Shown: piece by piece, positions 53,646-58,400 of the stretch | Position numbering within the stretch: position 1 is the first letter of the stretch | Layout of the letters: each line of letters begins with the position of its first letter | NCBI GenBank assembly: GCA_030062745.1 | Contig: CP099839.1 | Span: 24,851,324-24,915,323 of the forward strand | Length of the DNA stretch: 64,000 bases | Reading direction: 5' to 3' | Source: Capitulum mitella | Taxonomy: Eukaryota > Arthropoda > Thecostraca > Pollicipedomorpha > Pollicipedidae | Notes under the pieces: model-generated | The model's input: the letters and a program-made list of their open reading frames with translations, nothing else | Database searches by the model: none | Told to the model about the DNA's origin: nothing | Program-made: the position numbers and the translations under genes

Positions 53646-54390
53646 AGCCATGGACGTCAACCCCGCCGTCGGGCGGACTCGACGGGCCGGACCCGGAGCT
53701 GACGCGCGCGCGAGCACATCGACTTCCCACGAAACCGACAGGCCATTCTAGTTGCACGTAAGACGTCACCGCCGTTCTCAAAGCAGCGTGCACTGGGCGC
53801 GACCGTTCGCATCACGTCAGCACCTCCACGAAACCCGGGCGCTCGCTGCAGCCTACTGCCGCCAGCGCCGGGCGCCGGACGGGATGACCAGGCGCCTGCC
53901 GCCGGCGGTGGCGGTTCGGGCCCCAGGTCGCCGACACCGGCCGCCACGCACCGACCCCGCCCGGCCGGGCGCCGGCTCTCCGCTGACGTCATGCGGGCCG
54001 GCCGCCGCCGGAATACAGAGCGGCAGCCGTGCACGGGACGAGCCGCCGGCGCGGCTGCGCGCGACGCGGCTCGTCGCGGTGACGGACTGACACCAGGACA
54101 CCAAACGAGACCCAAGACTTGACTCAGGACTCGGACGCCTGAGCCGGAGGGGCTGTGCGTCCGAATTCACAAATTAACGGGTGCCGGTAGGTGGGAACTT
54201 GGTCGGGCCGTGGGGCACGGGTATACACGGAGCAGGCACGTAGCCAGGATTTTCCTCAGGAGGGAAAAATGCCAAATTTTGTCATATGCCACAGGCATAT
54301 GAAGAAATTTACAAGCAAAGGCAGCAATTTTAGTCAATTTGTCTTATATCTCTTGCACGGGAAATCATATGTTTGTTTTTGTAACATATA

Positions 54391-55356
54391 CGAGGTCTGT
54401 CCGAAAAGTAGCGAGACTGGCTTTATAAGAACTTTATTAGAAAAAATTGAAAAGTACCAATGTCACATTCCTTCAAAGTAATCCCCTACCAGTCTAACAC
54501 ACTTGTGCATTCGCCTTTTCCAGGATTCAATACACTCCTGGAAGGCATCTTCTGGGATCTTTCTGAGCTCCGTCGTCGCGGCCGTTTTGATGGAATCACT
54601 ATCAGGAAAATGGGTTCCCTTCAGAACAGAGGAAAAAGTCACAGGGGGCCACGTTGGGGGAATATGGAGGTTGTTGCAAAATTGCAATGTTCCTTTCTGC
54701 CAGAAACTGGCGAATATTCGTACGATCCGGAAACGAAGAGACAGAGTCGTGAATGGAAAAGTCCAGGATCCCCAAGGCCAAAAAAAGCAAGGAAGTCGGA
54801 GACGAAAGTGAAAGTGATACTCATTGTGTTTTTCGATATTCAAGGCATCGTTCACTTCGAATTCTTACCCCAAGGCCAAACAGTGAACCGAACCGTCTAC
54901 AAGGAGATTCTTTGGCGCCTCATGAGATCAGTGCGGGACAAGAGGCGGAGCATTTGGCAAACCAACGCATGGGTGCTCCATCACGACAACGCTCCTGCTC
55001 ACACAGCCCTGAGTATTCGCCAGTTTCTGGCAGAAAGGGACATTGCAACTTTGCAACAACCTCCATATTCCCCCAACGTGGCCCCCTGTGACTTTTTCCT
55101 CTTCCCCAAGATCAAATCTGTTCTGAAGTGAACCCATTTTCCTGATAGTGATTCCATCAAAACGGCCGCGACGACGGAGCTCAGAAAGATCCCAGAAGAT
55201 GCCTTCCAGGAGTGTACTGAATTCTGGAAAAGGCGAATGCACAAGTGTGTCAGACTGGAAGGGGATTACTTTGAAGGAGTTTGACTTTGGTACTTTTCAT
55301 TTTTTTCTAATAAAGTTCTTATAAAGCCAGTCTCGTTACTTTTCGGACAGACCTCG
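54391..55356 (+). mobile_element. Self-inverted (hairpin) mariner element
   Basis: A 966-bp IS630-Tc1-mariner relic flanked by TA on both sides (54389-54390 and 55357-55358). The ends read CGAGGTCTGTCCGAAAAGTA and its complement. The similarity does not stop at the usual short terminal repeats: the whole left arm 54391-54717 is an inverted copy of the right arm 55013-55356 (about 330 bp, with one 17-nt gap and scattered mismatches). The right arm encodes the transposase C-terminus, so the left arm is a backward copy that replaces the transposase N-terminus. Non-autonomous. Confidence 0.92.
54718..55284 (+). pseudogene. Truncated mariner transposase
   Basis: A frame encodes the second half of a mariner transposase: YDPETKRQSREW, LIVFFDIQGIVHFEF, then the HHDNAPAHTA and PPYSPNVAPCDFF blocks. 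Two of the three catalytic aspartates are present (GAC 54985 and GAC 55090) with exactly 34 residues between them, the DD34D spacing of mariner. The first catalytic aspartate, the paired-like DNA-binding domain and the start are missing, replaced by the inverted arm. An in-frame TGA at 55129-55131 interrupts the C-terminus; the inverted arm keeps GGA at the matching codon. The natural end is TGA 55282-55284. Confidence 0.92.
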
Positions 55357-55461
55357 TATATGATCACTATTACGTGTTCATGCGAAATCGTCATATATCT
55401 ACTGTAGACCACTTGGCTCAGGGGGCATGGCCCCCATGCCCCCCCCTTGGCTGCAACCCTG

Positions 55462-58400
55462 ACACGGAGGGAGACAAGCCACGAGATACGAGGCTTACAT
55501 TTGGCAGTACGATGCACGTTGGAAGCGACGGGCGTCACCCTGGCTGAGAACGTAGCTGACCCGGAGGAACAGTGGCGCACACGAGGGGAAATCGGCGAGA
55601 CTTCAGCGCCCAGAGCTGCTGCCGGTTGTTCTCTGACAAGGCTTTAGTGGCGGTGGTAAAACGGAATATTCCCGTCCTTAATGCGCGGTGGCCTGTTGGG
55701 AGAAGAAAAAAATCCACGCGGCGGTCGGGCCGGGCACTCTGCGCTTTGATTGATGGTTATGTCCCCTATGTGTTTTACATGTTCTCGTAATGACCCACTT
55801 ACGACTGAGAGATACGGGCCGTATTCTGCAGTGCTGGTCTAGCTTGGAACGCAATGTTTTTGCCGATGACTAATTGATATAGCCGTCCAGCGCTTGCACC
55901 GAGCAGTGCATTCGTGGAAAACGTTGAGATAGATTGTGATGTTGGCATGTTTCTCCGGGAACGCTTTTATTGCTTTTCGGAATTCTGGGTGGTGTCAGCC
56001 TTTGCATATCGGAAAAGCAGAATGGCATCAGATCATGCTGGTGAAAAGGATTGCTTGGAGAAGCGCCTGATAAATGTCTGCCATTTATTCAGTGAATGAT
56101 TGGGAGAGAATCGTTCAACTCATGGACATATGTATAAGTCATCCGGCCGGCTCCATGTTAAAGCATTCGCATTCCAAGTCCTTAATCAATCAATGCCTTT
56201 CAGAAACTATTGGCAGCATTTACAAATGACGCCGAATGCATAAACACAACCTGAGGCACTATGTGGCCTCTGAAGACAGCGTTTTCCAAATGATACCGTT
56301 CGGCTGCCTTCACAGTACAGTGGGCACAACCTCGCCAAAATGCTTTTTCTTTCAGCGATAAAATCCCGATCATTCCGACAGCGACCATTTACAATCAAGG
56401 TTAGCCTGCTTTTTCGAGCCAACGACTTGAGCTTCCCGTGTTGCGGTGTTCGTGGCCGTTTGTCCAGCGGTGCGTAATTAGGCCAGCCTGATCAGTCGGA
56501 CGAGCCATGCACCAGGCGGGGCGCGGGCCAGATTCGACCGATAGCCGCGAGGCCAGGCTTATTACGTTGACGGAGTTCCGTTCAGACGAGCTGCCTCGGC
56601 TCGACCTAGCTCTGTGCAGTCGGTGGATTGGGACAACGTATAGGGGCCCGTCGGAGAGTTCCCCTCTGCAGACAGGCGGGAGGGGAGATCTGAGGAGCAG
56701 CCTGAGAGCCGGTCTCTCACACGTGCAGGCGGGGAGGGTGTCTGTGCCCCGAGGGGCCGCAGGAGAGTTCCGACTTCCACAGGCAGGTGGAGGGTGTCTG
56801 TGCTAGCCGGCAGCTGGCGGGGCCCTCTCTTTCACAAGCCGGGCCGGGGTTTGTGTCTGTGAAAGGACCAGTCGGAGAGCTCCCCTTCGTCTCTCACGGG
56901 CAGGCCGGGTGGGGAGGAGGCGGAGGAACCTGTCTGATCCCAGAGGCTCCCCCTGCTCGGCAGGTTAGGCTGGCGCGAATCCAAGACTTGAGAAGGGCAG
57001 GCGGCATTGGCAGTCGGCCTCCCCATCAATGATCAGTCGACCGGCGGCAACATTCAAATGGCACAAGTAAGCACACGTCGACGAGGACATTCGCTTGTCC
57101 GCGACTGGGTGTAGGGGTCTGAAGGGCCAGCCGGAGTCTGGCTGTCCTTTCATAAGAGGCAGGGTGGCTCCTGCATGCACCAGTCGGAGGGATTTCCCTG
57201 CTGGTCGGCCGCCATTCTTGGCCCGCTCCACAGGACGGACCGACACAGGCTCCTCCAGGCCGCGAGCAATGTGAAATATTTGCAGAAGGCCGGTGTCACG
57301 GACTGCCGGCTTCTAGGATTCGTCGTCATCCAAACACGGCCAGGATGTGCTGTTGGTTCACGGCGCTCCGCCTTCTGACGGGAGAAAGTCGGCTCGTTTT
57401 CACGCTCATTATGTTTGCCGCACAAATAACGGAACGTCCCGGACGCTGCTGTTGTCCCAGTCATTTGTCGATTCACGGGACACGCTCCTCGCTGAGCCAG
57501 CACGGCGTCCCGCGGGCGGCTCTCATGTTCGTCAGCCACCTCGTTCCCGGGGTGGCTGACGAACGTCGTCGTCGCAGGTCGCAAAACCACGCGGCAGGAT
57601 TCGGCCGGGCCGAAATGAATGGCGCGCACTCGGCGCGCCATTCCGCGGGCGGCATTTTTCAACGCGCCATTCGGCGGGCGGCGCTTCGGCTGCGTCGGCC
57701 GTTGATCCGACCGGCTCGCTGACCGCTCGAGGCGGCCGCCGCTCCCGCCCGGCCGGGTCGGGCCTCTGGACACGTCGGCGTGCTGCGGTCGGAAGCACGT
57801 CGCAGCCGCGCGGCCGCTCAGGTGGCACCGGCGTCCGCGCGTGGGAACCGGAGTGACGTCACCGAGCGGGACGTCCAGCGCCTGTCACTCTCGACTGACG
57901 GCTGTCGTTAGCGGTCCGGCCAGCTTGATAAGTTTCGATAGGACAGCGTTTAAGCGCGTTATGGATGTCACGCGTCCGTCGTTAAGTGGGCGTAATGGTC
58001 GGCGAGGATGGGGTGTACGACAGCTTTAGAAGATCGCCGGTGTTTCTTGTCTAACTCTTACCCGTTGGTCTTGGTGAAAGGCGAAAATCACGTTTGCCAT
58101 CACAGTTGCTGGTCATAAGAAGACGCTATGGCTCAGGCAGGAAGATTAATGAATGCTAAGAAGATGATTAATAATCGAACGTAATTTTCCGTGACTCATT
58201 TGCTGCAGATTGTCTCGGTGCTGGCAGATCGCGACGATAAACCAGAGCCCACTAGCTTTCATTTGATGTTGCGAGGCAAATGGCGCAGATTTACAAGTCA
58301 GGTAATCACTACTACTAGAACGGATCTTTTCATAAGTCTTAAACTGACTGTGTCACGATATCGCGCTTTAACGTTCTTTTTTGCCAATGCTTAGTTTTGC

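Follow-up and report, generated by a model that had tools for sequence, protein, structure and literature searches.

Positions 54391-55356 of the window, by which we mean the whole 64,000-nucleotide stretch analysed (C1:24851324-24915323, in a genome of 477 Mb searched as 16 contigs), hold a mariner element whose left part is an inverted copy of its own right end. The question raised by this locus is whether such a structure is an isolated accident, or whether the element has multiplied in this form. It proves to be a member of a non-autonomous, hairpin-type, MITE-like mariner family and, very probably, this family goes back to one founder, a fold-back derivative of a mariner, which then spread as a non-autonomous hairpin. 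The features of the window copy are the following:

54389..54390, no strand: left TA, half of the target-site duplication (read in the sequence; all 15 two-ended copies are flanked by TA)
54389..54419, plus strand: left terminal repeat with its TA, 31 bp, one mismatch to the family form (C1:24905712-24905742)
54391..54719, minus strand: left arm, which repeats the element's own 3' end in inverted orientation and has a 17-bp gap (arm alignment)
54703..54735, plus strand: fold-back junction common to the family, in the window form GAAACTGGCGAATATTCGTACGATCCGGAAACG (alignment and 33-base junction search)
54720..55010, plus strand: unique middle, a portion of the transposase catalytic domain that lacks the first catalytic Asp (Pfam, Mos1 structure match)
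55011..55356, plus strand: right arm, the original 3' end; it holds transposase coding sequence as far as the stop codon at 55129-55131, then the untranslated end (sequence, arm alignment)
55328..55358, minus strand: right terminal repeat with its TA, 31 bp, exact family form (C1:24906651-24906681)
55357..55358, no strand: right TA, the other half of the target-site duplication (read in the sequence)

The arm alignment confirms the inverted-arm structure proposed in the initial annotation and corrects its sizes: the left arm of 329 bp is an inverted copy of a 346-bp right arm (not 327 and 344 bp), and the middle between them measures 291 bp (not 295). Aligned with each other, the arms are identical in 316 of 346 columns, the differences being 13 substitutions among the 329 bases they share and a single gap of 17 bp on the left side. 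Both outer ends carry the 31-bp terminal repeat (TA included), and the sequence that follows the left repeat, GCTTTATAAG, is of the 3' type, the 5' type of the full-length relatives being CGACTGCTGC. Pfam analysis of positions 54712-55131 reports Transposase_1 (1.3e-15) and DDE_3 (4.6e-9), while the transposase part matches the structure of Mos1 at 3e-19. The window copy is without a complete transposase, as the HTH part and the first Asp are missing and the frame ends at 55131; a search of this frame for TGD found none. From the second Asp to the third position there are 34 residues, both in the window copy and in the full-length relative L029, which is the DD34D spacing; we take the aligned Asp residues to be the catalytic ones, from what is known of Mos1.

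Six relatives from the same genome span the junction region: three of about 1.37 kb with both end regions (L029, L030 and L032) and three that are partial (L028, L031 and L033). The relatives of ~1.37 kb bear out the earlier proposal that the 5' half has been replaced by the inverted 3' end; the replacement is the inverted last 346 bp, and the DNA-binding domain and the first catalytic Asp were lost with the half that it replaced. The 5' end of the relatives (...GAGACTGCGACTGCTGC) and the reverse complement of their 3' end (...GAGACTGGCTTTATAAG) agree over about 31 bp, and it is past this 31-bp repeat that the left outer end of the hairpin reveals itself as 3' type. The only unbroken full-length frame among the copies seen is that of L029, with 354 codons, HTH_48 and Transposase_1 domains (Pfam) and a match to Mos1 over nearly its whole length (1.7e-43). 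The frames of L028, L030, L031 and L033 are broken or incomplete; at the third catalytic position these four have Asp, and L029 and L032 have Gly. No catalytically sound full-length copy was found among the copies seen (115 of 1130 candidates scored). The hallmarks of a mariner are all present, namely a DD34D Mos1-type parent transposase (HTH_48, Transposase_1 and the 34-residue spacing), terminal inverted repeats of ~30 bp (here 31 bp), and insertion at TA with TA duplication (flanking TAs in all 15 two-ended copies, and empty sites for one copy).

The same mariner has given rise to a second derivative by internal deletion (L034-L044 and L048-L054), which measures 756-789 bp in the 11 copies measured (L034-L044). 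A genome search with the 5' half of L029 returned 27 places, 18 of which are such deletion derivatives according to our class list. This derivative has a junction of its own, where a short fold-back with a 14-bp stem, TTCCTTTCTGCCAG TTT CTGGCAGAAAGGAA (the string tested), lies near the end of the hairpin arm. Two further internally deleted copies, L045 and L046, have their breaks near the TGD codons (parent positions ~723-725), and breakpoints may cluster near these codons.

Sixteen full-span copies of the hairpin, including the window copy, were found in the genome, in addition to three truncated ones (40 of 84 candidates scored). The full-span copies measure 949-984 bp and lie on 10 contigs (C1, C2, C4, C5, C6, C8, C9, C11, C13 and C16), the truncated ones on C3 and C7. 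A whole-genome search with a 33-base junction pattern, allowing up to 3 mismatches, returned 16 places, made up of 13 full-span copies plus all three truncated ones; it added no copy, and the reversed control gave 0. In the remaining full-span copies (L010, L020 and L023) the alignment reveals the junction with a small gap or substitutions, bringing the loci with the fold-back junction to 19, a number which more decayed copies could escape. The initial annotation had reasoned that copies with one junction at different TA sites would mark a mobile unit, and many copies with one junction and different TA sites, rather than a single copy, are indeed what was found. The exact junction and terminal-repeat patterns gave 0 and 0 matches in viral_contigs. 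The truncated copy on C3 (L027, within L058) has ~30 extra T/G-rich bases in its middle part, which are missing from the other aligned copies.

The insertion sites indicate that the derivative moved as a unit. TA is found on both sides in all 15 full-span copies that keep both ends, the left end being lost in L023; at least four of them (L009, L012, L017 and L022) are bordered left and right by TA microsatellites, and flanking TAs are weak evidence there. A comparison of the 400-bp flanks of different loci found no similarity between them; the matches listed each lay inside a single locus, L010 or L022. The three truncated copies share their flanks with L011 and are therefore not separate insertions. 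For L011, we joined its two flanks by a single TA and searched the genome with the resulting 242 bp; 14 places match across the full 242 bp at 93-100% identity, five of them shown as 100%. Furthermore, at L068 and L070 long alignments of L055 break off and restart exactly at the L011 insertion point, while at L069 and L071 the printed alignment pieces (>500 bp) end ~200 bp short on the left side of the L011 join. The earlier suggestion of movement as a unit thus holds, with 16 loci with unrelated flanks, 19 junction loci and empty sites for one copy. Taken together, one junction in 19 loci, TA ends, unrelated flanks and empty sites point to one fold-back founder that was moved whole.

The surroundings of L011 are of interest in themselves. 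This hairpin is embedded in a larger repeated element (L055-L058, on C9, C7, C7 and C3), and hence has been carried along by a second transposon. The copies L056-L058, each with a truncated hairpin, have long inverted arms (~1.5 kb as measured in L057), 329-bp units in tandem (L056) and, as read by eye, target duplications of 9-10 bp. We presume, by the usual criteria, that this larger element (L056-L058) is Mutator-like.

As to what moves the hairpins, a whole-genome search for the 31-bp terminal repeat with up to 3 mismatches returned 80 places (reversed control, 0). The 16 hairpins account for 31 of these (15 hairpins have both ends), 17 deletion copies for 34, nine full-length or broken copies for 11 and truncated hairpins for three; the one stray place, C5:3154671, is a fragment of ~105 bp. 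As 79 of the 80 places belong to the family's own classes, no intact partner with the same ends was seen. Another mariner family, whose protein is 51% identical, includes at least 10 copies whose open frame runs to 366 or 367 codons (115 scored out of 1130 candidates), and three of these copies are 99.3-99.9% identical to L059, which makes it young; it is found at C2:5453264, C10:21985083, C11:25229285, C1:31957426 and other sites. One of its terminal repeats agrees with that of the hairpins at 21 of 31 bases, and that of yet another mariner family at 22 of 31. It is possible, judging from these sequences, that the transposase of a related mariner moves the hairpin. An advantage of two 3' terminal repeats, as reported for Mos1 in PMC4505599, was also considered and set aside: the parent's own 5' and 3' repeats agree over ~31 bp, so that any advantage of two 3' ends would lie further in.

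The junction itself allows the original event to be located. In the six parents the region reads ACTGGTGATGAAACATGGGTATTCGAATACGATCCGG with variations (TGDETWVFEYDP), and in the hairpins AAACTGGCGAATACTCGTACGATCCGG with variations; the bases at the junction are the same in all 19 hairpin loci, and none of the six relatives spanning the region showed them. The initial annotation had placed the breakpoint at the TG[D/E] motif of the transposase, a location which the alignment to full-length relatives rules out: the motif is deleted, and the join lies ~8 codons further on, between WVFE and YDPE. The string that had been read as TG[D/E], ACTGGCGAATA, is plain inverted-arm sequence, the reverse complement of the IRQF codons. 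Microhomology at the fold-back junction is possible on the aligned bases, as CGAATAC lies beside the join in most parents and occurs also in the arm. As a proven route it was rejected, since the hairpin has ~6 extra bases (TCGTAC) separating CGAATAC from GATCC, and since shared inverted 7-mers are frequent in the parent (218 hits per 1368 positions in L029, terminal repeats included), such that a 7-bp match at one junction proves little. A match of TACTC, as in L032, with a 2-bp loss fits as an alternative. A parent allele without the filler was sought in L045-L047, none of which spans the region. Given this filler, more than one exact repair route fits.

A single repair error would account for this structure. 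A DNA strand copied leftward from the 3' end, for instance during gap repair after excision, may have changed template or folded back on its own 3' part, run out through the terminal repeat and been joined there. The founder would thereby have arisen once, and a transposase acting in trans would move the hairpin, given that the family's terminal repeat is present at both of its ends.

The two arms of a copy differ by 3-8%, and their relationships bear on what has happened since. We divided the copies into sub-groups by the variable columns of the arm alignment, a division of our own. In a tree of 48 arms from hairpin, full-length and deletion copies, the left arms of one sub-group tend to cluster, and likewise its right arms, as expected for copies moved whole; the left arms of L011 and L016 are among the exceptions. 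Among the 32 hairpin arms, a single clade of all left arms is rejected (p-AU 0.0045) and a single clade of both arms of sub-group I is not favoured (p-AU 0.07), in a tree where 15 of 29 inner branches are open and support is weak at many forks. At six consecutive diagnostic columns (222-288) the left arm of L016 shows the right-arm state, and at the seven outside it shows the left-arm state. The right arm of L009 carries the 17-bp deletion of the left arms of L009 and of the window copy (L024), the window right arm being without it. Gene conversion would explain both tracts simply, and exchange of sequence between arms by this means, tending to keep the long hairpin nearly perfect, is partly shown. 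Crossing-over between arms, which inverts the middle and swaps the labels, could lie behind part of the deeper clade pattern. Mean pairwise divergence in sub-group I (seven copies) is 1.2% for right arms and 2.4% for left arms, as against 3.5% for 11 deletion copies and 9.0% for five relatives, full-length or partial, so that the hairpins include some younger copies of the family.

A role for the hairpin as a source of small RNAs can be true alongside its transposon origin. Here, read-through from a neighbouring promoter would yield long dsRNA, and siRNA made from it would silence the parent mariner, by analogy with Mu killer of maize; we hold this to be unlikely, although such a source is structurally possible according to the predicted fold. 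The window-copy strand is predicted to fold to a nearly perfect stem at -681.5 kcal/mol, compared with -269 (mean; sd 8) when the sequence is shuffled 20 times. In every one of the 16 copies the arms match each other perfectly over 3-8 stretches of at least 21 bp, and the 508 arm 21-mers of the window copy have 148 perfect matches in L028 and 83 in L029. The lack of a catalytically sound full-length parent among the copies seen (115 of 1130 candidates scored) would suit silencing, but ordinary mutation equally explains dead parents. Among 10 of the 122 window ORFs tested, only one has a Pfam domain, a homeodomain end more than 50 kb away, so no gene is shown beside the window copy. Furthermore, the deletion derivative, which is without long arms, is about as widespread, with 17 loci that carry the terminal repeat; the hairpin form is therefore not needed for success, which argues against a special advantage. 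A more elaborate version, in which the hairpin would be a mobile RNAi trap that bears dsRNA against the transposase within its own body, spreads by the transposase it helps to silence, is kept nearly perfect by conversion between its arms and helped to kill its parent, appears quite improbable. The homeodomain end lies in an exon-like frame at 1211-1921 on the plus strand (QVKIWFQNRRTKWKK, Pfam 1.4e-5) and is followed by a glutamine-rich stretch.

For the origin of the structure, a very unlikely alternative to a single repair error is that two mariners, adjoining or nested in opposite directions, became an inverted pair through a deletion between them. This would also yield two 3'-type ends, TA outside and a unique middle. 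However, it requires two insertions and a deletion in place of one repair error, while the left arm starts exactly at the outer terminal repeat, and a spread from a single origin is still required afterwards; among the loci fetched, no intermediate structure was found. We consider it highly improbable that several independent fold-backs gave the sub-groups, with arms clustering by sub-group and not by side. The left and right arms of a sub-group do have derived sites in common, and the rejection of a single left-arm clade points the same way, but the 19 loci share one junction with bases unseen in the six relatives, and the conversion tracts are seen directly. An artefact of assembly or sequencing is a negligible prospect, for although chimeric reads are known to produce inverted repeats of this kind, the arrangement recurs at 15 further places, which excludes chance and renders an error of assembly very unlikely, the 16 copies lie at unrelated loci on 10 contigs with arms 3-8% different within a copy, they end exactly at terminal repeats and TA, and empty sites exist.

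The single fold-back founder finds its closest published case, as far as we searched the literature on mariner hairpins, long ends, gap repair and hairpin silencing, in Drosophila. PMC4161770 describes seven sublineages of mariner MITEs (including Dromar7, Dromar11, Dromar28 and Dromar36) whose 3' part has given way to 5' sequence, so that their inverted ends are unusually long; each arose from a single founder and was then amplified, and the origin of the rearrangement is termed elusive. Its main text does not contain the terms 'hairpin', 'gene conversion' or 'microhomology'. The MITEs of that study are elements of <1000 bp with at least two copies that have ends and different flanks, and here there are 16 copies of 949-984 bp. 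In both cases one end is replaced by the inverted other, in a single founder that was amplified. The direction, however, differs: the 3' part is replaced by the 5' in all seven Drosophila sublineages described, whereas in the present family it is the 5' half that the 3' end has replaced, which places coding sequence of the C-terminal side of the transposase in both arms. The hairpin family is thus the mirror image, in another mariner, of the published Drosophila arrangement, and the kind itself is known.

Internally deleted mariner derivatives and MITEs, as described in PMC4678618 and PMC5490172 (the shortened Rhodnius lineages are usually 800-900 bp), resemble the hairpins in having two ends, no complete transposase and a similar size class; what is described for them is internal deletion and no inverted duplication, and the genome studied here has a deletion class as well. 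The aphid LTIR group (PMC5490172) consists of DD40-41D elements of another clade with TIRs of >460 bp. Long inverted ends are common to these LTIR elements, to Foldback-type elements and to the hairpins. The arms of Foldback-type elements hold tandem repeats, unlike the element here, where no direct repeat of at least 20 bp was found within 54000-55800. Mu killer, which silences MuDR in maize and for which read-through from a flanking gene was proposed (PMC3440606), is likewise a partial inverted duplication of transposase sequence with terminal repeats and a potential hairpin RNA. It is, however, a silencing locus, while the present case is a many-copy mobile family known from its sequence. 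In function, Mu killer would be the nearest parallel if small RNAs map to the hairpin. What this one genome adds to the known systems is a founder junction, full-length relatives, 16 siblings, an empty site and the opposite direction of replacement; in two copies (L016 and L009) exchange between the arms of a mobile hairpin is directly readable, and, set beside the Drosophila sublineages, the family reveals that either end of a mariner can be duplicated.
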